This document shows, one piece after another, positions 1,097 to 55,701 of a stretch of DNA of 64,000 bases. The position numbers were made by a program, and so were the translations under genes. The DNA is taken from contig CM034546.1 in assembly GCA_020055645.1 (NCBI GenBank), positions 134,933,875-134,997,874 of the forward strand. Reading direction: 5' to 3'. Below the pieces are notes generated by a model that was not told the DNA's origin, searched no databases, and saw nothing but the letters and a program-made list of their open reading frames with translations. Position 1 is the first letter of the stretch. Each line of letters opens with the position of its first letter. The DNA comes from Tomocerus qinae. Its lineage: Eukaryota; Arthropoda; Collembola; Entomobryomorpha; Tomoceridae.

Positions 1097-1922
1097 GATA
1101 AATCTTTTGGTTAGCCAAGTTTTACTTGATCTATGCACAGATGAGTAATTATTTGTTTGCTGACAAAATTGATTTGAATAGTATATATTTGAATGCAAAA
1201 CTGCTTACGTATTTAAATATTATCTACAACAAAACCAGTTACTTACTACTACTATCGTTTCGGAAAAGCGTAAACGTCTTAAGTAGCCTTTAAGTCACTC
1301 GTTTCTAAAATAATATACAATATCTATATACTTTTCATATTTTTTCCATCATCCGTTCGTCATTTAAATAACCGCATCCGCTTTGTGGTGTACTGTAATA
1401 GTGAATTAATGATTATGTCATGTATTTTAATAATTAACAGCATCTGAATATAATTCTTCGACATGAATCTATTGACGACAGAGTTGTTAATGAGAATGTG
1501 TACAAGGAACCAAATAGCACAAAGATAATTATAAAATTGTGTTTTTCTATCTAACATTATTTAGGTCCGATGTTTAAGTTAAGGTCATGAACAGAAAATA
1601 TCGATTTTGTAATTAATGAGATCATACACACACTACGCCAGTCCATCCAAGGAATTTTAATGAATCGAAACTGAGCTGTTGTGGTTTTGATTATCAGGTA
1701 CTACACGATAATGCTTTCAATTATTTTGTCTACTTTAATTGTTTATGCAATATCAGTATTTTATGAGTGATATGATATGGCAAATATTTGTCAGTCGATC
1801 CTTTTGATAATTGGAAGACAATAGTTTATTTATAATTACATTTATCCGTATAATATTATGAATATTTTGATATCTATAATAAGTAATGTAATGAGCAGGG
1901 ACAGTAAGTAAATTCCGTAAAT

Positions 1923-2629
1923 TCAATTGGAATTTTCAGCGCATTGTGCTACACAATCTTGATACCGATTTCGTGTATTTGGCGGCTGTTGGCCGCTCTG
2001 ACCACCGTTATTGTAGTACCCACTGAAAACAGTCCTTGGTGAAGTAACAATTCGAGGTGTTTGAGGCCATTGTGGTTCCACTCTCCCTGGGGATTTCACC
2101 GAACATCCCGCGTAATCGATAGAACCTAAAATTATGCACATACAACGAGAAGAAATCTTTAATCCATCAAGTTACTATATAAAAAGATATCATAAAAAGT
2201 TTTTCTGTGATATAATCTACCTAGAAATTATGAATTGGCATTAAATAAGGTAATTGTAATTTAGGTCATTGCAATGCATTGTTACCTGAAGGTAAATTTG
2301 GCTGACGAAGAACATTTTGTGGGGTGTCACACTGTTTCAGCCAAGCTGCATACCACAATGTTGGAGGGCATTGGAATCGAATCGGATTATTATGATTGCA
2401 AACGTAGTAAGCGTTGCATGCGGAAAGATCAGGAAAAGTCCCAAAGGACCTTGGGCATTGAAATAGAGAACCATCCTGTTGGCCTTTGATTTCTGTTGAC
2501 AAAATAGTAATAAAATATTGTAGAACATGTATAAGATACTTAAGATAAGGATTATTGTGGCTCTTCCTTACCATAGAAAGACACAGCAAACAGAAAGCTA
2601 TAAAACAGCAAGATCTTTGAAGCACGCAT
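1923..2629 (-). CDS. small secreted chitin-binding (peritrophin-A/CBM14) protein, 3 exons
   Basis: Exons 2572-2629, 2286-2492 and 1923-2125 join with phase-1 introns to give 155 aa. Exon 1 is a signal peptide starting MRASKILLFYSFLFAV. Exon 2 has one type-2 chitin-binding domain (FQCPRSFGTFPDLSACNAYY, VCNHNNPIRFQCPP, WLKQCDTP). Exon 3 is a Pro/Gln/Asn-rich tail ending in a short Cys pair (CVAQC). The same exon architecture (signal, domain, tail) occurs in the two neighbours, so the three are probably tandem paralogues. Likely an extracellular cuticle or gut-lining component; family assignment is firm, exact role is not. Confidence 0.8.
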
Positions 2630-3403
2630 CTTAATTTTTGCCTTTAGAATATTAAATGGAGGAAAATATTTTTAATCGGTAGAACTAGATTACTCTCGAA
2701 ACTCTCAATCTAGTTTATTTGTTCATATATCAAGACAATTCATTAAATACAACAACAAAAATTATGCCATTTCGAATCTTTTTCCTTCGTAATATTGTGG
2801 TTTGTGGCAATGATCCAATCGGAGTATTTTTGTTCTTCTATGAATAATTATGTGCGCACTTTGCGTCCATGAAGTATGAGATTAGTACTAGTACATTTTA
2901 AACCGCTTAATGTTTTAAATAAATGTTGACTTAATATTTTAATAAATATCGATTGCGTAGTTTAGTGATTTAACATTTTTTTCAGTGGATTGATGTCTTT
3001 TATTAGGTACTTGATAATAAGGCACAGAATCAAATATTTTATTCCGTCACCTATTCTAATAACATCGTGTTCTATATAATCATCATGAATCATGACACAT
3101 TTAGTTTACATCATTTCTATCGAATCTTTTATTTTTCCTCAAAGCCTCAAGTTCTTTTGTCAACGTATTAATGATTTATTAAATTCGCCGAAATTATTAA
3201 GACGGGATGTTGAGGTTAAGATATGAATAAATAAAAAAAATACACCAAAACTCGTGAATTTCTGTCTTTAATAGAATAATACATTCCTCGCAAAATAGAC
3301 AGTTGTATTTGGATATCACATCAAAATCAAACGGCTAATACGGCTTTTGCTGGGGTTTAGAATATTTATTTTCTTTGGCAAGTTTCATTTCATGATCTAT
3401 AAA
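2630..3403. other. intergenic, no gene seen
   Basis: AT-rich spacer between divergently oriented chitin-binding genes. It presumably contains both promoters, but I can see no specific element beyond scattered TATA-like runs. Confidence 0.4.
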
Positions 3404-3855
3404 ATGAAGACAATGGTGATAGGCTTATACTCTGGGGTGATGTTGTACTTCTTCATAATTCAAGGTAGTTTTTTATTGCTTTTGTGGCTTAAATTTTGGG
3501 AATATAGAGCATATAATTCCATTTTGCCAATTTATTAAGAAATGAATGAAATGAAACAGAATTTATTGCTGATTGCTACAAATTCTAATGGTGATATTTT
3601 ATCTTTGAAGGTGTTAGTGGACAATGTACAAGCGATTTTGCAATTGTGCCTGATCCAAACGACTGCTCTGTATTTTATCGATGCAACTGGGGCAAGCCTG
3701 AGATGTTTTTCTGTGGTTACTACAGTCACTTCAACAGATATACACAAACCTGTGACTACCCACATAATTCTGGATGTCAAAACAGAAGATCTGCCGGAAG
3801 CCCTTGTGCGCCAGGACAGATCAGGGATTATCAAGGAAGATGCTACTATAATTAG
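3404..3855 (+). CDS. small secreted chitin-binding (peritrophin-A/CBM14) protein, 2 exons
   Basis: Exons 3404-3464 and 3611-3855 (phase 1) give 101 aa. Exon 1 encodes a hydrophobic signal peptide (MKTMVIGLYSGVMLYFFIIQ); an in-frame ATG at 3392 is an alternative start adding four residues. Exon 2 carries one chitin-binding domain with the Cys pattern QCTSDFAIVPDPNDCSVFYR, CNWGKPEMFFCGYYS and QTCDYP, plus a short Cys-rich tail (CAPGQ..GRCYYN). Opposite strand to the two upstream paralogues. Likely an extracellular chitin-binding protein. Confidence 0.8.
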
Positions 3856-5079
3856 GATATAATTCAATTCAATTTTTGTAAATTAAATATTAACTTTTAG
3901 TATTTATTGCGGCATATTATACATACCTAACATAACGTTAATTAAAATGCAGTTTTCGTGTTTTTTGACTACAAAAAAGTATAAGTAAAAATTACAAACT
4001 TTCTAATTAGTGTATAAAAATAAGGTTACATTACAAAATAAAGAATAAAGTTTAAAAATTTATTCTCGATTCAATTATGTTACTCAGGTACAAGAAGATG
4101 ACACAACAAAATTCAGTTTACGATTTCAAGTAAAACAGTTGTTAGTTTGTACTTTGAAAACAGAGACAGATCTTACAAAAACCCAACAGTTTAATATACA
4201 ATTAGTTAGTTGTATACATGTAATAATTTATGCGTACTTCTATTAATTGTGCAGATATTTTATAAATTATACATTGAAAAGCTCGATTGAATAATATCAT
4301 ACTACATCTCAATTTTGAAAAACCTTTGCTGGGTGATTGAGAACACAAGTTCATGAGAATCGTTAGGTGGAGAATTTCTTAAACATGTGATAGTGAAAAA
4401 GTCTAAGTCAAAGATGAGCCTACTTTAGATGAGGGCGAAATGAGCTCCAAAAAGTAATTTTATTTACAGGAGAGCAGAAGTATTGTTCTAGAGAACAGCA
4501 GAAATTCAAATTTCTTAAAAGGTGTATTGAGGTAGGGTTACTTATAGAATAGGGATGACACATTTACCTTTCATACATCAAGATTCATCAACTCAAAGTC
4601 CCATATATTTAGAATGCCATCCGGCTTTCAGAGAATAATTATGCGGTTGGATAGCTTGGACTCGTACATTTACAAAAACACTGCACAAAAGTTCAAGTAC
4701 TAATTTGCATCCTATCAGTTTCACAAAGATATAATTTTACATACTAATTTTATGCTGGAGATTTTCTCACTACATTTATAAAGTTCATACCGTATATAGA
4801 ATTTACAGATCCAACTTACTTTAGCACGATTTATTGACTTATTTATTTTAAATTATTTTTATTTTTGATTTTTCAATACCTCGTAACTGATTGAAAAATA
4901 CAGATACAACTTAAATACTGGAAATTGAGTCTACTATTACTTCAGTCACACACTTATGCATTTTTACATTCCAGTACTGTATACTCCTAAAAAATAAATA
5001 GAAATCATGTATAGGTAAGTTTAAACGTTTAACCAGTAAAATAGAAAATAGCAATATCTACACTAATGTTATTATTAAG
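3856..5079. other. 3' flank and intergenic, no gene seen
   Basis: A polyadenylation-like AATAAA follows the chitin-binding gene at about 4038. The rest is AT-rich DNA down to the 3' end of the receptor kinase gene. It holds that gene's probable 3' untranslated region, with no open frame of coding character. Confidence 0.4.
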
Positions 5080-8000
5080 TTAGCTACGTACGTTTGAACT
5101 GACAGTACTTGCAGAGTAATAGTGCAAAAGATGTTCCTGAACATTCCCTAACTGAATTCTATTCCATGGTTCAATTCTCCAACACTCCAGCATTATGTTA
5201 TTATATCTAGAACAAAAAACAATCGTTAAAATACCAATTATCGTATAATATGTTTTAAATTACAAAATAAATCAAGTACATTAAGGGAGGGCAGAATGTT
5301 GGTTTGTTCAATCGATATCCCTCTGATATCTGCATAAGAAACTCGTCGTTATAAACCAAATGAGAGAATGGAATTTGTCCAAAAGAAAAAACTTCCCAAA
5401 GCAAAACGCCATACGACCAAATATCCGATTCGTGCGAAAACTTTTGAAACTGCAGAGCCTCGATGGCCACCCACCTCCAAGGGATGCAACAATCCTAGAA
5501 CTTCACTTATTTAAAACCTCTAAAACTATTTATGAAAATTAGATGAAAATAAAATTAACCTTCTTATTCTGTATATAATTTTCATAATTTAACAGTTGAC
5601 GAGATAGTCCAAAATCTGCAATCTTTGCCACTAGGTTTTCTGTAACGAGGACATTTCTCGCAGCTAGGTCTCCATGAATTATCTATATAACATAATTAAA
5701 CTAATATAAAAATATATAATCATAGAATTAAATTGAAATGTGTTGTAGCTTACATGTTTTTCCTTCAAAAACTGTAATCCCTTTACTACTTGTATTGAAA
5801 ACTGAACGCATTGCTCAATAATCACACCATGTTGCCTTAGGAAATAAACACACTAATTAAAAGTAGTTGTAAAAATGGTAATGTTTTTCATTGTCCCACA
5901 AAAAATCAGAAGGAAACATTCAATTTTTGGATTTTCAATATTACAGGAACAATATATATTCCACATTTCGTGATCTCTATATTATAACCACAGGCTGAGA
6001 TAAAGCAATAAATTTACCTACCTGTCTATCTATGACTGATAGGATTATTGCATAAAATTATTAATTCCGCTGCTATGGGTAACATAAGCATTTTTCAAAG
6101 TAAGGACTGAATTGGACTTTATTGAACTGAATTGGACTTTATTGCACTGAATTGGACTTTATTGGACTGAATAGGACCGAATTGGACTTTATTGGACCGA
6201 ATTTGACTTTATTGGACCGAATTGGACAGAAATGAACCAAAATGGGTTAAATTCAGTAAAAGACATTTTTTACATGAAAAACTAAATTTGCTATAAGTGC
6301 TCTACTTACAAGGGTGTTATTTCATCAAAATGCTTTTTACTGGATGTCTACAGTGCTAGTAAAAGGTTAAAATTTACTTTGTTGTAACAGCTACGCAATT
6401 TTCATCTACATAATGTCGTTCAAATTTTTGGACGTAACTCAGCAGCGAACCGTTTGAACAGAACTCCATGAGTATGTAGATTTCACCTTAAATTGTGTAT
6501 AAATACTTGAATTAGCACCAAAATATTAAATAGTATTTCATGCACTGTATCTTTTAACTGTTACGTTTCTTTAAATTCTCCGTGCAGGCTCCAACAAGAG
6601 TGACCACATTTTCATGATTCCCAATGTATATCATGGTTTTCAATTCCTTAAGTAACGACTTGAAGTAATTTATATCACTAAATGGTTTTAATGTCTTTAC
6701 AGCTACATATTTGTATGGGGAATTTTCTAACAAATATTTAGCCTTGAATATCAATCCGAAATTTCCAGAGCCAATGAGACAGTCCAGACCTTTATAATTA
6801 AAATGTTCAAGTAAAACTTTAAATTGTTAAAATTCTTTGATATTGCAATACCGAATTCAAATTTATTTCTTGGGATCTCATAAGGACTATTTTCATAAGG
6901 AAGATAATAAGCAAATTCATTTCCCATTCCAACTCTAGCCGCCAATTCCGGAATTCCTCTCATAAATTCATTAAAATCGTCGTCGCTTAATTCTTTTAAT
7001 GCTTTCTAAAATATTAAAATTTCATGCATTATTCAAAATTATTCACATTCAAAATAATTTTTATTGTGTATAGATAATTGATACCTTTGTGTTTCTAAGA
7101 ATAACCAAAAGGAATCCAATAATGAATAAAATTACAAGTCCTCCAATACATAAAGATACCCATAAGAGAGTCAAATCTCTAGACGCTGTAAAAAAATATA
7201 TCGATCGATGAAAATGCACTTGGTTTAACTTTTAGAAGATAAAATTTGTTTGTAGACCTTTAAATTTAACTTGAAAGGATTTTGAATCTTTGCCAGCAAC
7301 ATTTTTGGCATGACAAGAGTAAAGTCCATTGAATGACGAGCTGTGCTCGGGGAAATAAATTGTACTACGACTTCTATCTTCAAATTTTTGTAGCCTTGTC
7401 GGCAGCGGCATCTTCAAAATTAGAAAATGCTCAAAATAAAGTTTATGCAATTTTAAGAAACCTGAAGTGACTACGGTTAAGCAGGGTACAAAAAGGTACT
7501 CTTTTTGTACAAAAAATAAAAAAGTACTACATTTAAAAAACCGCCCTTTTTTACTTTTTTACGTTTTTTGCCTTTTTGACATGTAAATTTGAAGTAAATT
7601 GGGAACGCTGCTACATCTAAAAAGGCAAAAAAGAACTGCTTTAAAAAAATCTTACCCCTACCTTTTTAATAAAAAAGGTAAAAGGCAAAAAAGGTCCTTT
7701 CTTGTACCCTGCGGTTAAGAGCGTAGTCACTCGAGACAATTAAACGCAGAATTATCTCACTGAATTATTGTATTTCCAAGTAATAACAGCTTTAGGTTTT
7801 GCCTTTGGATAACATTCAAGTTGTAAGGTATCTCTTGGAGTGAAGATTACTTCTGTTACCGTTCCAGACTTTTCAGAAAATGTAGGACTCATTGAAACTA
7901 AAGCGAATAAATTTCTTTAGCCTACAATTTTAAATTTATTAATCTACAGATCCTTATCTCTATTGCAACCTTCGACATTAACCGGTAGAGAATTATTCAT

Positions 8001-13434: not shown

Positions 13435-15285
13435 CAGGGCCGGTGAGGTTTTTATGATGCCCGGGCAAACGCTATTTTGATGCCCCCTTTAACTTTAATG
13501 TGACTTCATATTTTAAGACCAGGAAATATTTTTGTTGCACAAACGTATGTTAAAATAGGGTAGAAATGGAAAGCCAATTTTAAAGTTGCACTTTTAAAAC
13601 ATTAAATCGCTTATGTTTGAGACGGTCAGGGTTAACATTGTTTGGGTTGAGACCGTTTGTGTTGAGATGGTTTGAGTTGAGACGGTTTGGGTTGAGACCG
13701 TTTGTGTTGAGATGGTTTGAGTTGAGACGGTTTGGGTTGAGACGGTTTGGGTTGAGGAGGTTTGAGTTTGGGTTGAGAAGGTTTGGGTTGAGAAGGTTTA
13801 GGTTGAGACGGTTTGGGTTGAGAAGATTTAGGTTAAGACTGTTTGGGTTGAGAAGATTCAGGTTGAGACGGTTTGGGTTGAGACGGTTTGGGTTGAGACG
13901 GTTTCCGTTGAGAAGGTTTCCGTTGAGAAGGTTTGGGTTGAGACTGTTTGGGGCTTGGGTTGAGGCTGTTTAGGCTGGGACTATTTTGGTTAAGACTGTT
14001 TGGGTTGAGAATAATTGGGTTCATACTGTTTAGTTTGAGACTGTTTGGGTTCAGACTGTTTGGGTTCATTCAGACTGTTTGGGTTGAGACGGTTTGGGTT
14101 GTGGCTGTTTGGTTAAGACTGTTTGGGTGAATACTGTTTGGGTGAATACTGTTTGGGTTGAGACTGTTTGGGTCGGGATTGTTTGGGTTTAAATTGTTTG
14201 GGATGAGACGGTTTGGGATGAGACTTTTTAGTTGAGACCAGTTTTATTTCACATGGTTTGGGTTGACAAGGTTTGGATTGGAAGGAAAAAGTTTGAAAGG
14301 GGTTTCGGTTGAGACGGTTTGGGAGGAAAATGAAATCAATTTTGTTTTTAATTAAATCATACCTTATTGAAACATGCAATGCCAAATACATTGTTCTATA
14401 TTTCGGTTCCAATTGTAATTAGTTATTTTTTGCGATGTCTAACAAGCTATTGCACGACTTGGTACGATGAATAGAACTAAATTTACATTAATTTTCAATT
14501 ACTATTTCTTTTAAATACTATTTCTATAATCTAACCTAACCGTTGAGTTTTCGTAGTGTTTTTAGTAGTGTCTGAAAACCTGCAGGCTTTCAATCGAGCT
14601 ATTGCACGACTTGGTACGATGAATCGTTACATCCATTTTTAATTATTTTAAGTTTTTAAATCATATTACTTATTAGGGGAAGGCTACAACTAATTTAGTG
14701 GTGTTTGTGGACATGTCAGATTTCAGTCTAGCTATTGCGTTAATTTATAAAGAAAAAAGAACGGAAGTTACGTCGATTTTTGGTTATTTTCATTTTTCAT
14801 ACGCTTCTCCTAACAGGAGAAGATTACTATAACCTGTTCAGCAATGTGACAAATCATGCCAGCTGTCGAACACACTTTTACACGTCGTTTTATGATAACC
14901 AGAACCAAAGTTACGTCGATTTTTAGTAAAATTTGATCTTTAAACCCCTCCGCTAGTTTACTCCGCTCGAAAGCTATATCGTGAACAGGGATTAACGAGC
15001 GGACAGACAGACAACAGAAATAGTATTCGCATAAAGAGAAAAAAACTTATCTGAATAATGATCATTGTTAGAAACAAGTTGAAATCGGATTGTGGCATTG
15101 ATGTTAAAACGGAAATAAACTAATTAGTGTTTGTTCTCGAGAAATAATTTGTTATATTTTCTTTGGAATACTAATGAATATTTCATATGGGCGGAAAAAA
15201 ATTATTTTTTCGTTCATTTTGCTGCCCCCTTCAGCTTGATGCCCGGTGCCGTCGCCCCGGTCGCACCCCCAATTCCCCGGCCCTG
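13435..15285. mobile_element. non-autonomous hAT-type element, 1.85 kb, with internal minisatellite
   Basis: It begins CAGGGCCGGTGAGG and, read inward from the other end, CAGGGCCGGGGAAT. The flanks carry the perfect 8-bp direct repeat GTAGTACT (13427-13434 and 15286-15293). Both features indicate a hAT element. It encodes no transposase. Its first half is a minisatellite (separate entry). Its second half contains two copies of an 'agctattgcacgacttggta' sequence (from about 14446 and 14600) and further degenerate repeats. The long Arg/Leu- or Pro/Ser/Asn-rich open frames inside are products of the minisatellite, not genes. Confidence 0.85.
13620..14330. repeat. 15-bp minisatellite (GGTTTGGGTTGAGAC family), about 700 bp
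   Basis: Roughly 45 head-to-tail copies of a 15-bp unit GGTTTGGGTTGAGAC. They are most regular at 13620-13950 and then diverge into GTTTGGGTTGAGACT, GGGTGAATACT and GGGATGAGACG variants. The plus strand is G-rich and the minus strand C-poor in G, so strand asymmetry is strong. It lies entirely inside the hAT-type element. Confidence 0.9.
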
Positions 15286-24031: not shown

Positions 24032-24887
24032 GGGCATCCTATTATTTTTAGTGTTTGGCCAGACACTGAATAGTGGCAGAAATGGCAGTGCCTAAAATGG
24101 TTTTTAGCCAGAGGCTAAAATTAAAACCAGGCTTTTAAACACTATATTTTTGGTCTTTTTAGACAGTAAAATCATTAAAGCCGGCCTTCTGGGTAGCTAA
24201 AAGGTCAATAAACAGTGTAAAATAAAATAATGATGTTTCATTTCTCTTCAATTCCAGTTCAACTCATCAATCAAGAGATAAATACGTGAAGAGTACTTAT
24301 ATTATAATTAAGAAGTAATTCGAGAAGCTGCATGAGAAACATTAGTCAATGATCTCCAACTCTAACGTAATCGTTGGAATAAGCTATAAAGCTATTAATC
24401 ACCTCTGCGTCCTTGACAACCTTCTATTCATATTTTTCCATCTATAGGTGTAGACCAAGGTGTAGACTATAATATGTCCAGCCCTATCCTATTGGTGTTA
24501 TGCTGGTGTAAGTTCTTGAACCCAATCTTCTTGGTGACTCTTAAGCCTAAACTAAAGTCGAATATTTAAGTGAGTTTCAAAGTTTACGTTCACGATCACG
24601 TTTGAACGAAATGTGACGGAATAGTTATAGTTTACTGTTTGGTTACTTTAGTTGTCGTTTCATTTCCAGTTTATAATATAAACTGAATGCTCCGTAGCTA
24701 TACTTCAATTTTACACAACGGCAACTGAAGCTAAACTTAAACTGAACACTCTCATAGCTATACTTGACGATCACCGATCTCGATAGACTCACCAGCGCGA
24801 AAGTATAAATTTTACTTTGTGTCTGCGAAATGTTCGAACCAAATAATTAATTGCAAATGATTGTCAAATAGCGAAATTCTTACAAAC

Positions 24888-26070
24888 ATGGCTGGAAGAT
24901 CCGATCTGGTAAGTAAATATGGAATTATATTATATTTTATTAATACTAAAATTATGACATGACATTCTTATGATTTGACATGCAAATGACATACCACCAC
25001 TAATCTGTTCACAGGATTTAATGGTTGACCAAGTACGCCTTTTATCAAAAGAGGACTTTTTATCAGTAATGAAATCAATCGCAAAAGATACAATCCACCC
25101 AGAAGCGAGCAAAATAATAGTTAATGCCTTCAATAAGACAAAGCGGCGTCCGGGCTTCAGTGGTGGCAACGACTCCCAAAGAAACGCTGAGTCTCGTCCA
25201 CCACATGAAAGCAGTAAATCGGCTTGGCAGGTAATAACATATTAAACTATTTATTATTTTATTTAATTTGAACATTAACTTTTGAGAATAATAAATTAAA
25301 ATATATGAACACGTTTTGCAGTGCCCAACAATCTTTCGAGGCGACCTTGTACCGGTGAATGACTACGTTGTATTTGAAGTAGAAAAAGTCTCCTTAAAAA
25401 AAGGCTACAATCCTGGATTTGCATCCTTTAAGAAAAATAAACACCTTCTTGTCGGCGCCAATCTATCAGTAGTCGATTATAAAGGAACACTTATTCTCTG
25501 GGTTTTTATTAAATATGACGTTGATGAAGTCTGCCAGTGGAATACCAAACTAACTAAGTTGGACAGAATGAAGATAGGACAAGGAATCAGTTTAACTTCG
25601 GTAGGTATACAGCAGTACGGAGTGTATTAACATTTAATAAATATATAATAAAATATAGCACTATCTATTAAATAAACAATTATCTAAAATTTTAGGTTCA
25701 TGAAATGTTAGATATTGTCTTCAAGGACAATATCTTAGTAGGTCATTCAGTGGACCAGGATCTTGCTTCATTAAATTACACGTTCAAGGGACAGAAAATT
25801 ATAGATGTTGCTGATTATTTCATCGACACTAATTATCAAAAATTCAAACTAAAAGACATTCTTTCGTATTTTAAAGAAAATTCGAGCTTTCAAGAGGATG
25901 AACATTCGTTAGCCAAGGACGCACGTGCAACTTTGCATGTTTTTCTCCTAATGGAGCTGCTGAAGAAAAACGGAATATGGACAGGCAAAGACCTAAAAAT
26001 AAAAAGAAGTGGCAAGGAGAAAATTGTATATGATGTATGTAAATGTGAATGTGTCAAAGTAAGACGATGA
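24888..26070 (+). CDS. DEDDh-type (REXO/ISG20-like) exonuclease-fold protein carried by the Harbinger element, 4 exons
   Basis: Exons 24888-24908, 25015-25230, 25322-25600 and 25696-26070 join in phase 0 to give 296 aa. A charged N-terminal region (MAGRSDLDLMVDQVRLLSKE onward) precedes an RNase H-like exonuclease domain from about 80 to 255. Motif I reads YVVFEVEKV (Glu98, Glu100), where active enzymes usually have Asp-x-Glu. Motif II is ILVGHSVDQDLASL with Asp194. Motif III is HSLAKDARATLHVF with His242 and Asp247, matching the H-x4-D-A signature. The basic tail ends CECVKVRR. Related enzymes trim RNA or DNA 3' ends in the nucleus. Located between the left terminal repeat and the transposase, pointing inward. 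The Asp-to-Glu change may weaken catalysis or may be tolerated. Confidence 0.8.
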
Positions 26071-26497
26071 AATTAAATATTATATCTGTATATTAACTGT
26101 ATTCGATGAAGTTAAATGAAATTTCCGTACTTGTCAACTAATTTCTACACAAATTGTAACAATATTATTGTTTATTATTAAATTAGTTTTCTTTAACAAT
26201 TTACATGAATTTATGTAAATAAACAATTGAAAGGAGTACAGTAGATTACCACAGCTATTTTATACTTTTTAAATAATTTAAAATATTTAGTTACATGTTC
26301 TAATAAGATATTCTTAAACTTCTATGAATTTCTGACTGATAGTTAAATGGAGTCGTAGCAGTTTTTTACTAATATTATGTTCCAACTGCATAACTATATA
26401 GTATATAATAATACTAAACTTTTTCTGACTTCTGTATACATAGTAGAACTAGAATACCAGTCAATATCTGCAAAGGACAACTAGATTCGAACTGGTT

Positions 26498-27979
26498 TCA
26501 ATCATGAAATCCTCGCGTTACGTGATGATATTGCCAGGTTGTCGATCCAACGCCAGAATTAAAGTAATTTTTGAAATCATTTCGTACTTGCGCAGCATCA
26601 TGGGAATGATTTCCATTACTTATTATTGGAATTGGTAATATCCCAGAATTATTAGCTAGCTCAGAACGCCAGCCTCCATCAACAATTTCTCCGTTTTCGT
26701 TGATGAAGTCCCCTGTGAACACGCCATGGTCACTTCGTTTTAAAAGGAAGTTATGAAGAATTAATGTTCCCTCAACAATGAGATGCACTAGGTCCATGTC
26801 GCAATGGATCGGAACGTTGTAAATTCGCCAGCGTGCACTTAAAATGCCAAACATGTTTTCTACGACTCTTCGTGCACGGCTTAGGCGATAATTGAAAACA
26901 GATTTTGGTGTTTCAAGTGAATTCCCAGGAAAGGGTCTCATTAGATACGACTTTAACCCAAATCCTTCATCGCCCAGAATCACATGAGGTGTAATCACAA
27001 GACTTCCGGGTAATTTCCTTTCTCCGGGTAGACCTAATTTATTTTCAAATAACGCTCTCCCCATTGCACTTCTCATCAATATACCGCTGTCTGAAGACGC
27101 ACCATTTCCTCCAATATCGGCTGCTACCACAGAGTAATCTCCTCCTGCTATAGCTAGCAGTACAATAGAAAAAAAACTTTTATAGTTGTGGTTAACAGAA
27201 CCACTATTTCTTGGACATCGCAATCGGACGTGCTTTCCGTCAATAGCTCCACAGGCGTTAGGGAAGTTCCACTTCTCGCAGAAAATTTCTTCCTGTGTAG
27301 CCCACATTGTTGGAGTTGGAGGAGGAAAATAAATTGGCTTGAGATGCCGTATTATGCTTGTAAGAGTCTCTCTCAGGATCATTCTTACCGATGCAGGCGA
27401 CACTCTAAATGTAACTCCGATTGATATCATCGAATTACCAGAAGCCAAGTATCTATAAGTACATATAATATACGGGTCTTCATTTTCTTTTAATGACACT
27501 GATATTAGTATAATAAAATCGAAAAATAGTCAGGCCTTCGCATCCTTTTGATGGCACTGCTATTATTACATATTATATTTTACATTAGGATTTTATTATA
27601 TTGATCAGTTAATTTCATACCGAAGTGTAATCGCCAGCCTTGTCATTGGTGAAATCGGAAGTTGATGGTTTGGAGAATGGGTTACATCTTTTGAAATCAA
27701 ACTGGCAATGTAATCAAAGTTCGATACATTCATCCTATAATTTCGAAATCAATGCATCAACATATGCTATTACATTTTTCAATATATTCAATTTTATTAG
27801 TTGCAGTACCTGAACATTTTATGATGGTAAACGTCATCCTCTCTCAGCATTGCTATCAATGAACTACTGCTTCTGGAAATAAATAAATTCCTGAGGTACA
27901 TTGATCGTTGTCGAGCCCGAGCCCGCCTTTGCCTTCTTCTTAACAGTGCCATTAGTAGTAAAAATCTTATATTATCCAT
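26498..27979 (-). CDS. HARBI1-type PIF/Harbinger transposase, 3 exons
   Basis: Exons 27810-27979, 27621-27734 and 26498-27452 (phase-2 introns) give 412 aa, close to the usual length. The N-terminus is Arg-rich (RRRQRRARARQRS). A helix-turn-helix-like region includes LASGNSMISIGVTFRVS. The DDE_4 catalytic core is intact: GAIDGKH (Asp166), ILGDEGF (Asp256) and RRVVENMFGILSARWRI (Glu293). The upstream codons MSLKENEDPY... seen in the continuous frame are intron read-through, since YLASGNS joins exon 2 across an ATAG acceptor. It would cut and join transposon ends at TWA targets, normally with a Myb/MADF-like partner, which is encoded just upstream at 28267-29367. Confidence 0.95.
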
Positions 27980-28266
27980 TTTCAAATGCAATTAAACTAG
28001 CGTGGAAATAAAATCGAATGAGACAAAGGATAAAATGCTCAACGTTATTTGAAGGTAGCTCAAAGATTTGTGCTAAAGACAAGGCAGTATTTAGATTTAC
28101 CACCGTAGTGCATGAACATGAATATGATCGAAGGGAAATAAATACTTGCCATGTGCTCAAATATATTTATATATATTTCTTTCTAGAACAAAATGTTTAA
28201 TACCACAATATTACATTTAAAGTCGCTATAAACTCGATTAGAAAGCTATAACATTATTGAAATTTT

Positions 28267-29367
28267 TCATTCAAACTCGCTTTCCAACAGTAGTTGATGT
28301 ATCTTTAGTTGGACGGAAGCAGCTTTATGAGCACTTTTTTCGTTTATCCGACGCAGTTTTGGAATTATACTCAAGCCGAACAGTTCAAATTCATCCTTTT
28401 GAATATCCTTAACTTTGGAGTTGTTTTCCAGAGCCTCAATCAACTTTTCATCCACTGGATCCATTTTTCTCTTTGGCATAGATTTACCTATAACATTTCA
28501 AGTAGAATTAGTCGGGCCTTCATTTTCTTTTGAAAACACTGCTAGTAATTATGGAATCACTGTTTAAGGTTTTCGAATATTTTGCAAAACAGGATTTGTA
28601 CAGCTGACATAGGTAAACTAAAAATAGTTAGGTTTTCAATTTCTTATGACAACACTACTACTTTATGATATATTACTTTTGCGAGCAGTTTCAACAGTTA
28701 TAGCAGGTTCAGTTCCTTCTTGAAGGCCATGGAGCTCAATTTCCAAATTATCTTCTGCAATCACACTTTCTTCGGCGGTCGACTCATCCATCACATTCGA
28801 CACAGACCTTAAATATATTTTTAATAGTATCAATATTATGCAATGGCTACGAAATGAAGATTTGTTATTTTATTATTACTTGTATGGTTTATAATGGGGT
28901 TCATAAAACCGCATCAGCTCTGAATGCCGATAGAAATGATTTTGTCGCCCTGACCCAGTTGGCTGTTGAGTCTTTCTTAGGTAAGTAGCGTATTGGTCTC
29001 TCAATCGTTTCCAAATCCTTTCACATTCACCACCTGAAAAGGCAGAAAATGAAAATAGAAATTTACACGAACAAGCACTCCTGAATAAAGTCGAGCCATA
29101 ATTTTTCTTTTTATGGCATTGCTTTCTTGGAATACGCAATGGCACACGGTATCGATCAGTAGTCACAAAGTAAAGTATGGCCAGTATCATTATTTAATTA
29201 TTATTTTAATTACCTTCTAGTTGCATTTGTGCAGCAATCGAAGACCAGGCATTTACTTTTTTCACAGTATCTTTGTAGCTTTTGTCACTTTTGTCATACA
29301 AGTACGGATGATCCACAACTAAAGTGATTAGTTTCTCTTCTACTTCCGCAATATCGTTTGAAGACAT
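28267..29367 (-). CDS. MADF-BESS DNA-binding partner protein of the Harbinger element, 4 exons
   Basis: Exons 29214-29367, 28880-29033, 28677-28807 and 28267-28487 (phases 1, 2, 1) give 219 aa. The MADF (Myb/SANT-like) domain occupies about 8-105: EEKLITLVVDHPYLYDKSDK, VKKVNAWSSIAAQM, then ERIWKRLRDQYATYLRKTQQ and SELMRFYEPHYKPYK. An acidic linker follows. The C-terminal BESS motif is FELFGLSIIPKLRRI with AASVQLKIHQLLLE. In PIF/Harbinger elements a Myb-like second protein binds the transposon ends and brings the transposase to the nucleus; a MADF protein is the usual form in several animal elements. The open frame upstream of the ATG at 29367 lacks a better start. Confidence 0.9.
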
Positions 29368-29831
29368 TTTGATCAAAATTTGGCGAATAGCTTTCAAATT
29401 TTTATAGAATATTTGCACCTGGCAAAAGCCAGCTCAGTTGACTGTTTAAATATTGCGGCATCCAGCAATTCCACCTTGTAGTCGAGTCCTACTTTGCTAT
29501 TGGTCAAAAGCCGAACTGGATACGTTTCGATCGGTTTCCAAATCGGCTGCCGTTGGGTTGTTGAAACGTGATAAGTTTTGATTAACTGAAATTAAACTTA
29601 ATCGAGAACCGAACAGTATAACCATGAAAGATGAAAAGGGAACCACAACGTAAACTTAATCGTGATCGTGATCTGAACAGTATAGTTACGGGAAACTCAT
29701 CGGCAACTGAAACTAAACTTAATCATGAACGTCAACTAAACAGAAAAGGACGGTATAGCTACGGAATCATGAACTACAACGTGAACTTACTAAGTTTGGC
29801 TGTCAAATCAGCAACTTTAGTTTAGGCTTTA

Positions 29832-34025: not shown

Positions 34026-34328
34026 ACGGGCAGGCAATTTAGTGCCCGTGCCCGCCCGTGCCCGTAACAAAGGAGCCCGTGGCCGCCCAAACCCGCCCGT
34101 GAGCATCCTGATTTTTCCAGGGCTGCCCGAGCCCGCCCGTGGTCATCCTACATTGGCCCGTTCCCGCCCGTGGCCGCAAAAAATCTGTGTTCCGTACCCG
34201 TGCCCGCCCGTGCCCGTGAAAATTCTGTAGCATGTGCCCGTGCCCGCCCGTGCCCGTGAAAATTCTGTAGCATGTGCCCGTGCCCGCCCGTGCCCGTGAA
34301 AATTCTGTAACATGTGCCCGTGCCCGCA
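34026..34328. repeat. subterminal GC-rich tandem array (GTGCCCGCCCGTGCCCG)
   Basis: About eight units. Three near-identical copies of GTGCCCGTGCCCGCCCGTGC with spacer GAAAATTCTGTAGCAT lie at 34195-34325 (about 56-bp higher-order unit). The open frames over it (Ala/Arg/Gly-rich) are artefacts of the repeat. Confidence 0.85.
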
Positions 34329-36824: not shown

Positions 36825-37932
36825 TTAACAGGGCGAGGATGGGTAGTATACAGCCATGTGTTAGCTGCAGAATACAATACTTCTGTTTATCATCAAAAAG
36901 TGGTTACCATAGGTGAAATACTTTTTTTACTATATGACGTCACTTAACATTTCCATGGGCCCGAACCCGACAATGTGTTTTAAATATAAACAATGGTCTA
37001 TCGGGCCGGAAAGTCCAGCCAAACCGGATATTGTGCTTTCTAGCGACTGCGCATTGGCCCGAATTTCATAGACCGTTGATTGGACTCAGTATTGATAGCC
37101 TAGTCCTTGCTCATTAATTACAAAATATTACCCTTACTCATTAATTACAAAATATTACGGACATAGTAGATACAAACATTTATTCAGGAATAGTGAAAGA
37201 ATCCCATGCGCATGCCCCACTTTATCTTTATGTAGAGTAAAGATTGTTCTGATGTTATAATCATAGAATACCGATAGGTGGCGGTTATAATAATATGAAA
37301 CAACTCATTTCGTTTGTTTAGAGGGAGGGGGCATGCGCTTTCGTGCTTTCAAGGAACGTTTATAGTTGATGGGAGGAGGCGATGTCCAAAAGAGTTACAG
37401 CTAGCACTTGCGCTACACTTGAGAGAGGGGGTTTTAAGTTTTAGGTTATGTAATATGCAGGTTTCCTAGGCTCTCCTACCAAAAATAGAAAGTCAGATCA
37501 GGTATTGGTATTAGTGCGATTATATTATAGAAGACTAATATCTGTGTTATAATAATATAATGTTTCACGGACGGAACATTCATTATTGTATTGTACATGT
37601 TGTGTTGTGTACTGTTATTGTTATTATAAAGTTACGGGCACTTACGGGCGCCCGCGGGCAGCCCGTGCCCGCCCGTGAACATCTTTGATGGGCCCGTGCC
37701 TGCCCGTGAGAATCCTTGGTTGACTCATACCCGCCCGTGCCCGTCCGTGAGTATCCTTGATTAGCCTGTGCCCGCCCGTACCTGCCCGTGAGCATACTTA
37801 GCTAGCCCGGTGCCCGTACATGCCCGTGAAAAATCCGTTTAACGTGCCCGTTCCCGCCCGTGCCCGTACGGGCACGGGCCGGGCAGCTGCCCGTACGGGC
37901 TGCCTGTGCCCGTGCAACTCTCTACTATGAAT

Positions 37933-42966: not shown

Positions 42967-44690
42967 GACTCGTACAAGTGACAGCTGGCAGGTGCACAGC
43001 TAACAGCTGATTATGGGATTGATATTTGTCAAAATCCAGAAAGCCCTGTAGATTAGATGAATTGGAAAATTAAATTATATCAAGTTTTGGGTAAGTGGTA
43101 AGAGTAGCAATGTCAGGGTAGGAAACATTTTTTCTAATTTTTGTAATTAACATAATTAAGATATATTTACTAACTATTATATTTATTACACTTATGACTT
43201 ATAATTTTAAAAGCTTACATATAGTGTATTATTGTAAGCAGAATCTGCGTAAAAACTTGAGATTGTGAGTAAAACGTTGCGAGTCTTCAGTTTTAGTTAA
43301 AGAATATTTCCATTTTACAGCCTTCGTATTCGTTCTTCAGTTTAGTTGTCCAGCCAATCCAGTAACCCAGTCCACTTTTCAGTTTTTTCATTACTGTATG
43401 TTTATTTGTATGGATTCTGGAGATTTTCTATTTTGATTTTTCGCAGTCAAGTTAACATCTCTGTTTCTCTGCCCATTGTGTCTCAGTTGTCCCCTTTATT
43501 TCTTACTCGATATTTTTGTCAAATTTTATATATTTTATCGTTTTAAAAATTGAATTCAAAGAATTAATAAAAATTAAAGCTCAAAAAATTTCATAATATG
43601 ATGATACTACAAAACATGATATTATAATGTGTGAGATCCATTTCATCAGATGAGGATCGAATTAGAAGTTACTAATTTCCATGAGATTTTGAATTTCGTT
43701 ATCCAGGTATCATGTCATTTTTACCTGTTAAAAGACAAATCCATAAACAGTATACTATGACTATGACAAATCTCAAGATTGTTATTGCATTGTAAACTAT
43801 TAGCTAATAGGAATTATCTACCAGGAAAACCCGGCATTACAATTTCCACTCCACAAACTCCACATTGATAGTATTATTAACATGAGTAAGCAGAATCTTG
43901 ATGATGAAGACTATTGTTCGTACATTTTATTTGTTAATAAGTTATCCTTTTAGACTGTCTCCAGTATTTGGTTTTAGCGATAATAAGTAACCTTTGGTCG
44001 AAGTCGAAGGATGTTGCCATCTCATTCTGGATTTGACTGGATATAATTTGGTTTAGCTATAGTAGTTGATGTAGAGAACAAAGTCCATTCTATATAGTAT
44101 AATAGAGTATCACTAGAAGAAAATAATTGTTTGCCTTTAAAGTGATACTTCTGCAACCATTTACTACTTCATTCATTCAATGTTAGACAAATATGGGGCC
44201 AAGGAAAGTTGTGGTAAAATGAAACAACATTTGCAATTGGTATTAAAATGTTGACACATGGAAATTGAAGCTAATTATGTCTCATTTTCTTAGCACTTAT
44301 GACAGACATAATTAAAACAACCAATAATTACTCCAGATTCTAAATTTTTCAATTAATTATTACCCCACGATCTACCTATATTAGTATAACCTTAACCTTG
44401 TATTTGAATAATTGAACATTTTTCATCAATGCATTACCATCAAAATTTTGATACTTACTCTTTCATTTACTACTTTGTTCTGCTTATTGCCCTGTTTTCG
44501 ATGAGTAAAATCAAAAATATTCATTTTTCTCTCCGATTCGAAAAATAAAAATCTATTTTAATAGACAGTAAAACGTTCATAAGTGTTTAAGAAAACTTTG
44601 GACATTAAAACTGAGTGAGTGATATAATTCTAAAGGAAAGAGCAGAATTAAATAATTCTGAGGAAAATGATCAGGTATAGGAATTTTAAC
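42967..44690. other. intergenic; 5' part of the segmental duplication
   Basis: From about 43330 the sequence matches 56190 onward (for example gattttctattttgattttt in both), forming the upstream part of the duplication. It presumably contains the promoter of the 44691 gene. No other gene seen. Confidence 0.6.
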
Positions 44691-46480
44691 ATGTCAATGG
44701 GGACTAAGACTAAAATGGGTACTAAAAGTCCATCGGAATCTCGGGCAGAAATTACTCCAGCAATGTTGAAAAAGGAAGCCTCTGATCAACACCTGGAATC
44801 TTTAGCTAAAGAGAAATTTCAGCATTCAATTGACGCTTTGAAGGACAGAATAAAAGCAAGAAGAAATCTGGTTGTTAAACATTCAGAAAGTCATACAGAC
44901 TGTACAGAGCCAGTCAACGAAAATATTCCTGAAGCTCCTCCACCATATCCTCATCCTCCTCCTTATGAAAATCCGAAATTAGAAAAGCCAATCGTCCCCC
45001 GTTTTGATGCCGAAGAAATTAAGAAAACACTAAAAAAGCTTCAGAAAGGCAGAAATTTAGAAAAGTTGCTCGAGACGCATGGAATTCGCCAAGGCGTTGA
45101 TGTACCTTCCCTTAAAAAGCACATGGACGTTGTTTTAAAAGATGTTAAAACAAAAGAAAAGAAAGACAAACCTATTGCTAAAGGTATGAAGTATTCGTAT
45201 GTTGCTTGACTTCCATAATGTCATTATTAAGTATTGAATTAAAATTACTTTATGTTTACAGATCTTAAACCTGAAGTCGAGCCTATTGCAAAAGGTTAAC
45301 ATTTAACATTGATTTTTTATTCATTCATTCATCTCTGCTATTTATTCAAAGGATTAAAAGTTAGTACTTTTAATTATTTTTTCACACAGGTGGTCGTCTT
45401 AGCCCTAAAGTCAAACCTATTACAAAAGGTTAGCTTCGCACTTAGTATTTATTTTTTTATTGAATCTGAATATTATTATCTACAATCTAAAATTAAACAG
45501 TTATCTAAAACTTCATTTCTTAGATCTGAATCCTGCAGATAAATGGCAGAGACAAATGTCACAACTAAAAGATTTAAATCATGGAGACAACTTGGAAAAA
45601 TGGCTCGAGAGCTTGGATGTTCCTAATAATGTGTCAGCTCCTCATGTCAAAGCAAAATTAAGAAAGTATTTCATGCATGAGACTTTTGAAACTTTACAGG
45701 GTAGGAATATTCTTTAGAGCATTTTTCATAAAACTGTTAACTTGAGTTTTAGAGTATAATATGTAACTGGAAAATAAATATGTCATTTTTGTTTAATAGG
45801 AAGGTCCATAATTTATGAGGAAGATACTAGAGCCAAAAAGCTCTGGGACCAATTTAAAGGTATTTATATTTCCAACGTCATAGGAAACTGTTGAGAAAAG
45901 ACTGACCAAAAGATAAAATCGGAATTTCTTTCCTTTTAAGACATGAACCCAGCCAAACAAGTGGCCGTCGTTGTCGGAATTACAGCCGTGACCGCAGTAG
46001 TTGGCTTTTTTACTTGGGAACTCTTAACGTTAGGTAAACTCCTCATTTTACACAGTAACCTTGTAATTATTATTATATTTATATTATTTCTATTTGAGTA
46101 AAATGTGTCTAAATACATTTAAACATATAGTTAAAATGTTTATTGCAATTAAGTTGATAAAAACCAGTCATTGTAATAAATTTTATTTATAGTATTCCCG
46201 AGTGTAATGGCTGTCAACCCATTTTTAGTGGAAGTTGGGGCTCAAGTATTTGTTCAGAGACAAGAAGGTGCATATCATTTGCTAATGAACCAAACAGAAA
46301 GGATGAAGCCACTCAGTACTGCATGGGCAAATCAATTTATCCTATGGAAATATATTTAACTCGATAAATTCTCAAGAAAGCTAAAAAACATTACAGTGAA
46401 GTGGAAAGTAATATGAAAATGAAAAATAAAAATATAATCTATAAAAACAGAATCCATGCTATCTGCTTATATACCTAAAT
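43330..46480 (+). repeat. segmental duplication, copy 1 (partner 56190-59650, direct)
   Basis: Direct, diverged copy of 56190-59650, including the whole 7-exon gene, its introns and about 1.4 kb of 5' flank. Exon sequences are more similar than introns. Limits are approximate because they were judged by eye. Confidence 0.8.
44691..46359 (+). CDS. unrecognised membrane-anchored protein with PPxY motifs, 7 exons (paralogue 1)
   Basis: Exons 44691-45183, 45262-45294, 45390-45428, 45524-45700, 45800-45859, 45941-46033 and 46193-46359, all phase 1, give 353 aa. Order: basic, charged N-terminus; two PPPY motifs (83-86, 89-92; candidate WW-domain ligands); helical module around GRNLEKLLETHGIRQGVDVP; two micro-exons of 33 and 39 nt encoding similar PKVKPITK/PEVEPIAK peptides; a second, related helical module (GDNLEKWLESLDVPNNVSAP); one transmembrane helix about 275-297 (VAVVVGITAVTAVVGFFTWE); a C-terminal domain ending FILWKYI. 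I do not recognise the family. The start was chosen because the acceptor-like TATAG at 44680 precedes it and the paralogue starts at the same place. All splice sites match the copy at 57787. Confidence 0.8.
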
Positions 46481-52732: not shown

Positions 52733-55701
52733 TTATTTTTTCAGTATCGTCATTGTCTCTAGACAAATGGGTGCTTCAGCTGCCCGTTTATTGGAGTCGA
52801 GGAACTTCTTAGCCTTCAGAAATTCTCGTAAAACGTGTCTTTTCAAATTAAAAGACTTAATGTTTGGCTGAATTTGTTTTCTAAAATGTTCTTTTAAACT
52901 CTGGTGAGTTCTGTTACCTGGTATTTCCTACAACATTTGTTTGAACATTTTAATCCAACTTAGTTTTTAAATTAATATCTCATCACACGTGAATTGAACA
53001 TAAAGTATATCTTACATTTAGATGCTCGAGGAACTGCCAGATCTTATTCCCTCGAGTATAATTATAGAATTTATGTTTTGCGATGAAGTTTATAATTGCC
53101 ATACGATCTGCCTCGGTATATTCCAGACTAAAATTGTAAAAATTTGGTAATTTCGACACCATAAAATGTATAATCTGAAAATCTGAAATCCTCGAAAATT
53201 TTACGGTACCGTTTACGCTTTTGTGGTGTACTGTGTTGTACTGTGTCGCCGTTGTTAGCAGACACATCCAGGATGTCCTCTTCCGATGAAAAATCGCTTA
53301 CAGGACTGCCAGGGGGAGATTCATTTGGCGTTTCAGTTCTAATTGCTTTTGGTAAAGGTAAAGCATGACAAGCAACCATCATACGCCCTAAACTGAGCGT
53401 ATCGTTTTCCGCTCCAATTGTCACTACTGTAGCAGATTTCGACGACGATGGCTTTTCTCTATCTTGAGGAATAAATGATTTCAACGACAATGGCTTTTCT
53501 CTATCTTGAGGAATAAATGATTTCGACGACGATGGCTTTTCTCTATCTTGAGGAATAAATGATTTCGACGACGATGGCTTTTCTCTATCTTGAGGAATAA
53601 ATGATTTCGACGACGATGGCTTTTCTCTATCTTGAGGAATAATTGATTTGGACGCCTTTTTTCCCTTTTCTTCGGCCGTAGACTTATCCTTTTGATTATT
53701 TGACATTTTAAGACCAACTTGTAATTCTGGTCTGAAAACAACACAATAGGAATTAATACAAATACAAATATAGTGGAGAGAAAGAATTGAAAATCTATGA
53801 TACGGTACCTTTTCATCAAGACTGCCATCTCTTTGACTTTGGCCGTTTTGCCTGGATGATCTTGGAAACCCGAAGTGGCTTGATCAAATTTTCGATGACA
53901 TTTTATCGAGGACTGAGGTGATTTCTCTAGAAGACCGTCTCTTCCGCACTTTTCCAACAACTTCATCCGAGAGGTCGATAACACTCCTTTCTCATTGCCG
54001 GTTACTTTAGACGCGTAGTTTTCCAGTAATGATCCTGACGAGGATGGATTTTCCTTTGCATAATGTGATTTGCTTAACGTTTCTGTCTTTCCTTTATCTG
54101 AAAATATTGAATTTTCTGCGTCTCTGTTTTCAAACGTAACTTCGTTCGCTGTTAGTAAATCAAATGCTACCTTCTTGACTTTTGGTTTACTTCCAGATGT
54201 AATTTTCTCTCCCTTATCAGTCAGTTGAGAAAAATTTGTTATTTTTTGAGGATTTTTTGTCATTTTCACAGAATTTTCTCTGTTTTCCATAGTTGATTTG
54301 GATTTTTCGCCGTCAGTAGTTTGTCGTGATGAATTATGTTTTCCTAATGGATCAGCAGGTATTGACGATACTTCCTTACTCCTAAGGTTTGACCATTTTA
54401 GTCTTCTATTAAGAATTCGATTGGCATCATATGGCCGAAACTGAGACTTTCCAATTCTGTTATTAAGTCAAAATTATAAAATTACGAATAATTTAAACCA
54501 AGCTGAAGCTATATTAAACGTACTAATACAACAACGCAACATTTCGCTTGTTTCATTAAAGAGACAACTGTGTAATTAATATGCAAGCTAGCAACTAACA
54601 ATCAGCTTTAGGACTAATTAAATTATTTTTTCTCCAATAAAACTAAGCCAATATAACAAGCTAAAATTATATTTTAATGCGTGTTAAGTTAAAAAATCTT
54701 ACAGATATTGATTTAAATCCTTTAATTTTTGATCTTCAAAGCAATCAAGAATAAACTGCTCATCAAAACGGTCGTAATTTTTGACGTAGGTGACAAGATT
54801 TCCCGAATTTTTACTACCGATAATGATCGTGTAGTCGTCTTCCAAACAGTCATCAACAACATATCCTCCTCGGCTCTAAACAGCCAAAACATGAAGATAA
54901 ATTAAAATCAACAAAAAATGCATATTTCTAATACCAATGCTATGACCCCAAATCAAAGTTTTAAACGAAGAGAGATTACGAAATTTACTAAAACATTTAC
55001 TGGTGTATACGATTTTTCATCACTTATTAATTGACTACTTATTTGGCATCACTTTCTACTATTACACATTATGTCATATGTAGCAGCAGATAGTGGTAAT
55101 GGGAGCGGGCTTTTCCCAAGTGTCAATGCCAAGTCTCAGTCACGTGACTCGTTAAAAATCATCTCTAAAGTCATCTCTAAAAGATTTTTTCATAGTTTTT
55201 TTAAAAGCCATTTGAACTACGTGGTGTACTAAAAAGTCATTCCTAAAGTTATTTCAATAACTTTAGGAAAAGTGATCGCTAAAGCCGTTTTAATCACGGG
55301 GTTTCTTAAAAGGTCATCTCAGTCTCGTAGAATTTTAAAAAGTCATCTCAATCACGTCACTCATTATAAAATCAGTTCAGTCAGATTACTTCCAGCATTT
55401 AAAAGACGATCATGTGTCAAGAGACTATGTATATATCTCACATAAGTTATCTTAGAAGAATTAGTCCCACCGCTGCGCTGACCCTCATCACTGATATAAA
55501 ATTAAAATGTGAAATAATATTCAATATTAATGGATTTAAGTGATTATTTAAACATTATACTTGTCTCACCAAAATCCTTTGACAAATCCGATCATTGGAA
55601 TTGGAGGAATCCACATGAAAAATCATGGATTCTTCACAGTCGTCATTAATACGGACCGTAAACAATTTGGCTTTCCAAGGCTTTCGAGTAGTAGTACCCA
55701 T
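52733..55701 (-). CDS. TERF2IP: RAP1/TERF2IP-like telomere protein, 6 exons
   Basis: Exons 55570-55701, 54703-54875, 53809-54456, 53210-53731, 53016-53127 and 52733-52927 join in phase to give 593 aa. N-terminal BRCT-like domain about 10-101 (AKLFTVRINDDCEESMIFHV; RGGYVVDDCLEDDYTII; FDEQFILDCFEDQKLKDLNQ). A long Ser/Lys-rich linker contains five 14-residue repeats (348-417). The Myb-type domain follows at about 493-565: LEYTEADRMAIINFIAKHKF, GNKIWQFLEHLN, then HQSLKEHFRKQI. The BRCT-linker-Myb order is the RAP1/TERF2IP layout; that protein binds telomeric shelterin and also regulates transcription. The C-terminal RCT domain of vertebrate RAP1 is not obvious; the protein ends soon after the Myb domain. 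Homology is called from motif spacing by eye. Confidence 0.75.
53434..53643 (-). repeat. 42-bp in-frame tandem repeat, five copies, in the RAP1-like gene
   Basis: Five copies of a 42-bp unit encode the 14-residue repeat FIPQDREKPSSSKS. The first has Ile for Phe, and the fourth has LSL for SSS. Copies are almost identical in DNA, indicating recent expansion. The unit is basic, phosphorylatable and disordered. Confidence 0.95.
54876..55569. repeat. RAP1-like gene intron 1 with degenerate repeats
   Basis: Within this 694-bp intron, about 55130-55400 contains many degenerate copies of AAAGTCATCTC(T/A) with spacers of 15-35 bp and a small inverted repeat AAAGTTATTTCAATAACTTT at about 55246. Function unknown. 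Confidence 0.6.

Follow-up and report, generated by a model that had tools for sequence, protein, structure and literature searches.

Cut-and-paste transposons are usually described with one or two genes, and repair and silencing are left to the host. What, then, is an exonuclease gene doing in one of them? The question is raised by a 64,000-nucleotide stretch of the springtail Tomocerus qinae (assembly GCA_020055645.1, contig CM034546.1, here C1), which we refer to as the window. It contains a 5,285-bp PIF/Harbinger element that carries, besides a transposase gene and the gene for a MADF partner protein, a third gene whose product is a predicted DEDDh-fold 3'-5' exonuclease. Our reading, to which we give a probability of about 75%, is that this element belongs to a three-gene PIF/Harbinger family and that its exonuclease gene is of the same family as the one in Kolobok-type elements.

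The element has the features expected of a PIF/Harbinger transposon: a 3-bp TWA duplication, a DDE_Tnp_4 transposase, and a Myb/SANT-like (MADF) partner. The original prediction for this locus had described perfect 15-bp inverted repeats and a TTA target duplication, and both are present. PIF/Harbinger terminal repeats are short and have A or G as their first base (according to the relevant part of PMC4482050); those of the window element (AGCCTAAACTAAAGT) are short and their start fits this rule. Two other identities were rejected. For ISL2EU, no YqaJ domain was listed for the window proteins, and the duplication is 3 bp, not the 2-bp AT; for KolobokD, the transposase is PF13359 and the duplication is TTA, not a Kolobok transposase with TTAA. 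Our searches covered the 334-Mb genome of the same assembly. In this genome, the joined flanks of the window insertion, used to look for a paralogous empty site, matched nothing but those two flanks.

Gene models were spliced by eye and then checked against an alignment of copies. The exonuclease gene is on the plus strand and the transposase and MADF genes are both on the minus strand, with the exonuclease and transposase genes convergent (Table 1). The spliced transposase (412 amino acids from three exons) is open and matches the whole of the Pfam profile PF13359 (DDE_Tnp_4; positions 1–158 of 158, E = 1.8e-21); the DDE residues that had been claimed for it were identified by eye. The partner protein (219 amino acids from four exons) matches the Pfam MADF profile PF10545 (E = 3.8e-18), which bears out half of the proposed MADF-BESS composition, but no BESS family was listed for it by Pfam at E values up to 1. 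The third gene is as predicted, with 296 amino acids in a frame that is open over four exons and GT-AG introns in phase 0.

A genome search with exons 3 and 4 of the exonuclease gave 15 places and one with the transposase gave 20 stretches; a transposase lies within about 3 kb at each of the 15 exonuclease places, which rules out that the gene is an accident of one copy. The 15 elements comprise three window-like ones (the window element, L009, and L042) and 12 of a second subfamily, whose ends are related to theirs. Of these 12, nine are near full length (5.69–5.75 kb), L036 carries a deletion and lacks its left end, and L045 and L046 are a rearranged pair. The second subfamily spread recently, since L035 is 99.2–99.9% identical to the eight other full-length copies over long aligned pieces. 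Identical 3-bp duplications flank 13 of the 15 elements (TTA in eight, TAA in four, and TAT in one); those of L037 are unequal, and L036 is missing one end. The exonuclease lies inside terminal repeats in 14 of the 15 elements (both ends seen), and not at a host locus without such repeats, which the original prediction had raised as the contrary case. L042 has the gene in part, without exons 1 and 2 and part of exon 3, and a decayed relic, whose two fragments (L047 and L048) are separated by about 17 kb, retains 25 amino acids of exon 2 at 88% identity. Because 15 elements and a relic carry it, the exonuclease is a regular component of this Harbinger family in this genome.

To see how the genes evolve, we computed the ratio of nonsynonymous to synonymous divergence (dN/dS, by the Nei-Gojobori method) for the window element, L009, and L037, the three of the 15 elements that keep every gene open, and also for two genes of L042, trimmed at its first stop. 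For the exonuclease, the ratio is 0.077 between the window element and L009 and 0.044 between the window element and L037; dN is just 0.13–0.16 and dS is near saturation, so these values are rough, and the comparison of L009 with L037 gave none because dS was saturated (bootstrap 0.05–0.10). For window/L009, window/L037, and L009/L037, respectively, the ratios are 0.109, 0.085, and 0.091 for the transposase and 0.127, 0.076, and 0.066 for the MADF gene. Between L009 and the decaying L042, the ratio is 0.47 for the MADF gene and 0.059 for the transposase (over 147 codons), both with wide intervals. Overall, all three genes are under purifying selection between the diverged subfamilies, the exonuclease included, for which this check had been proposed.

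We consider it very improbable that the exonuclease is a functionless passenger. Its frame is open in 5 of the 15 elements (the window element, L009, L034, L037, and L040, the last one codon shorter), and the window copy has lost a catalytic residue, as a passenger might. However, open frames are equally scarce for the transposase (6 of 15: the window element, L009, L036, L037, L040, and L043, with the stop counted in L009 being its natural end) and for the MADF gene (6 of 15: the window element, L009, L034, L035, L037, and L043). Low dN/dS between far-diverged copies, and the retention of the catalytic residues across superfamilies, also argue against a passenger.

The window element had been called intact, and here the original prediction was wrong on two counts. 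First, the first catalytic residue of its exonuclease is Glu; it is Asp in all 13 other copies that retain this stretch (L042 does not). In two-metal nucleases, Glu in place of this Asp is expected to weaken or abolish activity. The window copy's own exonuclease is probably weak or dead because of this replacement. Second, the element is chimeric. Left of position 26850, 1,699 of 2,270 aligned bases (75%) are identical between the window element and L009, as compared to 2,860 of 2,969 (96%) right of it (Fisher test, 3e-121). The synonymous divergence between these two elements is 1.66 for the exonuclease, 0.26 for the transposase, and 0.14 for the MADF gene. At six of six loci examined (L003–L008), we found a 917-bp non-autonomous element with window-type terminal repeats and TTA duplications; these derivatives are 98% identical to the window element over its left 245 bp and 76–77% identical at the right end. 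The genome has at least 38 places with short derivatives of this kind (40 of 61 candidates were scored). Given these end identities, the left half of the window element, exonuclease included, shares its lineage with the short derivatives, and the right half shares its own with L009. Within the Harbinger family, recombination exchanges the half that holds the exonuclease.

Relatives of the exonuclease also neighbor a different transposase. Exons 3 and 4 of L009, used in a translated search, had 166 matches, among them many distant ones (21–43% identity). With the close family hits excluded, 115 listed distant hits (150 of 220 candidates were scored) merged to 111 loci, and 63 of these have a PF20700 transposase within 8 kb among the listed matches. 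This and the other adjacency counts are lower bounds, as they draw on 121 listed PF20700 matches (114 of 245 candidates scored) and on a further list of 150 matches (150 of 423 scored). Random placement on contigs C1–C5 only (the length of C4 was assumed) gave a mean of 0.57 PF20700-adjacent loci and a maximum of 3 in 200 trials. The PF20700 neighbor is on the opposite strand in 63 of 63 cases and downstream of the exonuclease in 61 of 63, which is the same layout as in the Harbinger element. Among the listed matches, a Harbinger-type neighbor was seen at one of the 111 loci (C1:9994667–9997405), where a weak exonuclease-like match (C1:9997197, 25%) and a PF13359 match that is not of this family are about 2.3 kb apart.

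One class of these loci, L050 and L051, has TTAA at both ends (two of two loci) and imperfect terminal repeats, which is a Kolobok signature, and its transposase remnant is similar to the transposase of L052. L052 (C1:78826800–78834000, at 1354–6010) has a 567-amino-acid open frame that matches PF20700 with E = 1.6e-70. A YqaJ frame (9.9e-15) follows this transposase on the same strand, and the DEDDh exonuclease is on the other strand, so that L052, a candidate Kolobok-type element, has two nucleases. Some relatives of the exonuclease were not placed with either kind of element: L049 (C1:81.94 Mb) and L053 (C1:74.49 Mb), which are near-identical copies, and L056 (C1:84.57 Mb).

The Harbinger and Kolobok-type versions have introns in common. 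Among seven sequences (two Harbinger, three Kolobok-type, and two unplaced, with border peptides picked by eye), both borders of exon 3 coincide in all seven, the start being preceded by AG and the end followed by GT; exon 4 starts after AG in six, and exon 2 ends before GT in four of the six in which it was found (the borders in the other two, L052 and L055, were guessed). The family members all have the N-terminal stretch and a C-terminal CxC; an acidic, Trp-bearing C-terminal tail is present in the Kolobok-type and L049 versions and absent from the Harbinger and L056 versions. We built a tree from three Harbinger, four Kolobok-labelled, two unplaced, and two PDB sequences, omitting near-identical copies. 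(The L050 and L057 sequences are incomplete; L057 received its Kolobok label only for its similarity, as none of the listed PF20700 matches lies within 8 kb of it.) The Harbinger exonucleases group together with support of 100/100, and the transposon exonucleases are separate from ISG20 and ISG20L2, also with 100/100. Because the two kinds of element have in common the gene family, the introns, and the convergent placement, we suggest that the gene passed between the two superfamilies as intron-bearing DNA, or that both obtained it from a single common source.

Alternatively, one host gene might have given rise to the exonuclease of Harbinger and to that of Kolobok-type elements in separate events, without exchange between the transposons. 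A common host gene would explain the shared introns equally well, and the tree leaves the branching order open. Nevertheless, a six-frame, exon-by-exon search (which could miss one) found no host gene of this make-up, and both kinds of element have the gene in the identical convergent arrangement with the transposase, so we view independent uptake as improbable. The Pfam profile RNase_T is above its cut-off at two other places in the genome (C3:15471330 and C2:14927478–14928550), which are probably host genes.

Several observations weigh against our reading. Neither transposase was found within 8 kb, among the listed matches, at 47 of the 111 distant loci. TTAA ends were seen for the L050/L051 class alone, and no convincing TTAA-flanked ends were found at the L052 locus. 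In the tree, support for the Kolobok group is weak (49/18), and neither the order of the Harbinger, Kolobok, and unplaced versions nor the direction of transfer is given. The D-x-E, D, H, D catalytic set, which speaks for our reading where it is intact (six of seven aligned family members), is broken in the window copy. The scarcity of open exonuclease frames and the near-saturated dS belong here as well, as does the predominance of RNA enzymes among the closest solved relatives of the exonuclease.

On which substrate might the exonuclease act? RNase_T matches the window exonuclease weakly (0.026, under the cut-off) and matches that of L009 over the whole profile (6.3e-5, with 24.0 bits, exactly the cut-off); it matches five of the seven family members at E values up to 1, with a best value of 2e-7. 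A profile of three Harbinger copies reached SDN1 and PAN2 at only 0.008–0.014 and up. When searched against solved structures, a profile of seven members matched ISG20L2 (1.1e-13), ISG20 (2.1e-12), PAN2 (9.6e-9), SDN1 (4.7e-8), and DnaQ (3.8e-7). In the mechanism we propose, the transposase and the MADF protein would excise and insert the element in the manner of other PIF/Harbinger transposons, and the exonuclease would act in trans on a step that is independent of the type of transposase and common to both kinds of element. It would most likely act on the 3' ends of the DNA breaks left by excision and thereby steer their repair. We tentatively and narrowly favor DNA ends as the substrate because L052 also carries YqaJ, a DNA enzyme by family, and because the authors of KolobokD propose that their DEDDh enzyme degrades DNA intermediates (in the part of PMC9587614 that deals with it).

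Removal of the host's small RNAs is nearly as likely, since most of the closest solved structures are those of RNA enzymes. The exonuclease could break down small RNAs of the host, or any other RNA that targets the element, and host or element RNA is a possible substrate; such a suppressor of silencing would be useful to any transposon, irrespective of its transposase. ISG20L2, ISG20, PAN2, and the small-RNA-degrading SDN1 are its best solved relatives, and its occurrence with two unrelated transposases fits a host-side target. However, DEDDh enzymes of a single subfamily can use both DNA and RNA, DnaQ matches too, and the YqaJ nuclease next to the exonuclease in L052 suggests DNA. For the RNA reading, a parallel is offered by the exchange of TET/JBP genes, which act on an epigenetic mark, among 11 lineages of DNA transposons (reported in the relevant part of PMC12730594). 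A substrate of some other kind is unlikely.

Selection on a nuclease that accompanies two unrelated transposases suggests that both rely on some step for which the host makes no provision or which it opposes. We also considered a broader idea, which we regard as rather doubtful: the exonuclease may be a mobile accessory gene that moves with its introns between Kolobok and Harbinger elements, is swapped within Harbinger by recombination as part of a left-half module, and gives these elements a common tool against the host (against small-RNA silencing or in break repair) whatever the chemistry of transposition. As this genome has both versions of the gene, fully open three-gene elements, and short derivatives with the same ends, the step becomes testable.

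Table 1. Coordinates of the PIF/Harbinger element and its parts (window positions).
Feature	Position	Strand	Remarks
PIF/Harbinger element	24544–29828		5,285 bp; window at C1:134933875–134997874; ends and three genes
Target-site duplication, left	24541–24543		TTA
Target-site duplication, right	29829–29831		TTA
Left terminal inverted repeat	24544–24558	+	15 bp, perfect; also at both ends of L009 and L042
Right terminal inverted repeat	29814–29828	-	15 bp, perfect
Left end common to 917-bp non-autonomous derivatives	24544–24788	+	98%; 6 of 6 loci examined
Exonuclease exon 1	24888–24908	+	By-eye model checked on 15-copy alignment
Exonuclease exon 2	25015–25230	+	N-terminal stretch
Exonuclease exon 3	25322–25600	+	Motif I of DEDDh fold
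First catalytic residue codon	25376–25378	+	Glu in window copy
Exonuclease exon 4	25696–26070	+	Motifs II and III, C-terminal CxC, stop
Recombination breakpoint zone	26845–26910		Within transposase gene; 75% identity to L009 on its left, 96% on its right
Transposase exon 3	26498–27452	-	DDE domain, stop
Transposase exon 2	27621–27734	-	
Transposase exon 1	27810–27979	-	
MADF gene exon 4	28267–28487	-	Stop
MADF gene exon 3	28677–28807	-	
MADF gene exon 2	28880–29033	-	
MADF gene exon 1	29214–29367	-	

Elsewhere in the window, plus-strand frames at 44652–45209 and 57772–58299 encode similar proteins and are a local gene pair. A 42-bp tandem repeat of about five copies (53435–53654) lies in minus-strand frames, one of which repeats SFIPQDREKPSSSK. 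Further tandem arrays, at 13617–14280, 34156–34327, and 37692–37829, consist of a 15-bp unit repeated 44 times and, at two places, of 40/41-bp units similar to GCCCGTGCCC.

How does this element compare to known systems? (For each paper, the comparison is with the part that describes the element in question.) Insect PIF/Harbinger transposons with MADF partners have been described (PMC9710019), and in that paper and PMC4482050 such elements are like ours in the DDE transposase, the MADF partner, the short repeats that start with A, and the 3-bp TWA duplication; what sets the window element apart is a third gene, which encodes a DEDDh exonuclease and lies on the strand opposite to the other two. 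ISL2EU is also a Harbinger relative with a nuclease gene, but its nuclease has the YqaJ fold, its duplication is the 2-bp AT, and no MADF partner is described in the parts of PMC4482050 and PMC9179366 that cover it. HarbingerS (with SET, from oomycetes) and a TET-bearing Harbinger from rust fungi (PMC12730594) are similar in having an extra gene, which for TET is likewise from a gene family common to several transposon superfamilies; they differ in that these genes encode enzymes for histone or DNA modification rather than nucleases, and in being from oomycetes and fungi.

The original prediction knew of no DEDDh exonuclease in such a setting. For Harbinger elements this stands, as we found no report of one in the open-access literature (subscription papers and Repbase were outside the search), but for DNA transposons in general it does not. 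KolobokD is an animal DNA transposon with a DEDDh nuclease (PMC9587614); it differs in its Kolobok transposase and TTAA duplication, and its exonuclease is called exuperantia-, TREX-, and ERI1-like there, whereas by profile search ours is closest to ISG20L2 and ISG20. DEDDh nucleases in P and piggyBac elements are mentioned in one sentence of PMC3627910; the source cited for it, the meeting report PMC3520738, does not contain the term DEDDh. Compared by description only, those elements also have an accessory DEDDh nuclease gene and belong to other superfamilies. DNA transposons were already known to carry DEDDh nucleases; the Harbinger carrier, together with a gene common to two superfamilies, is a new variant.

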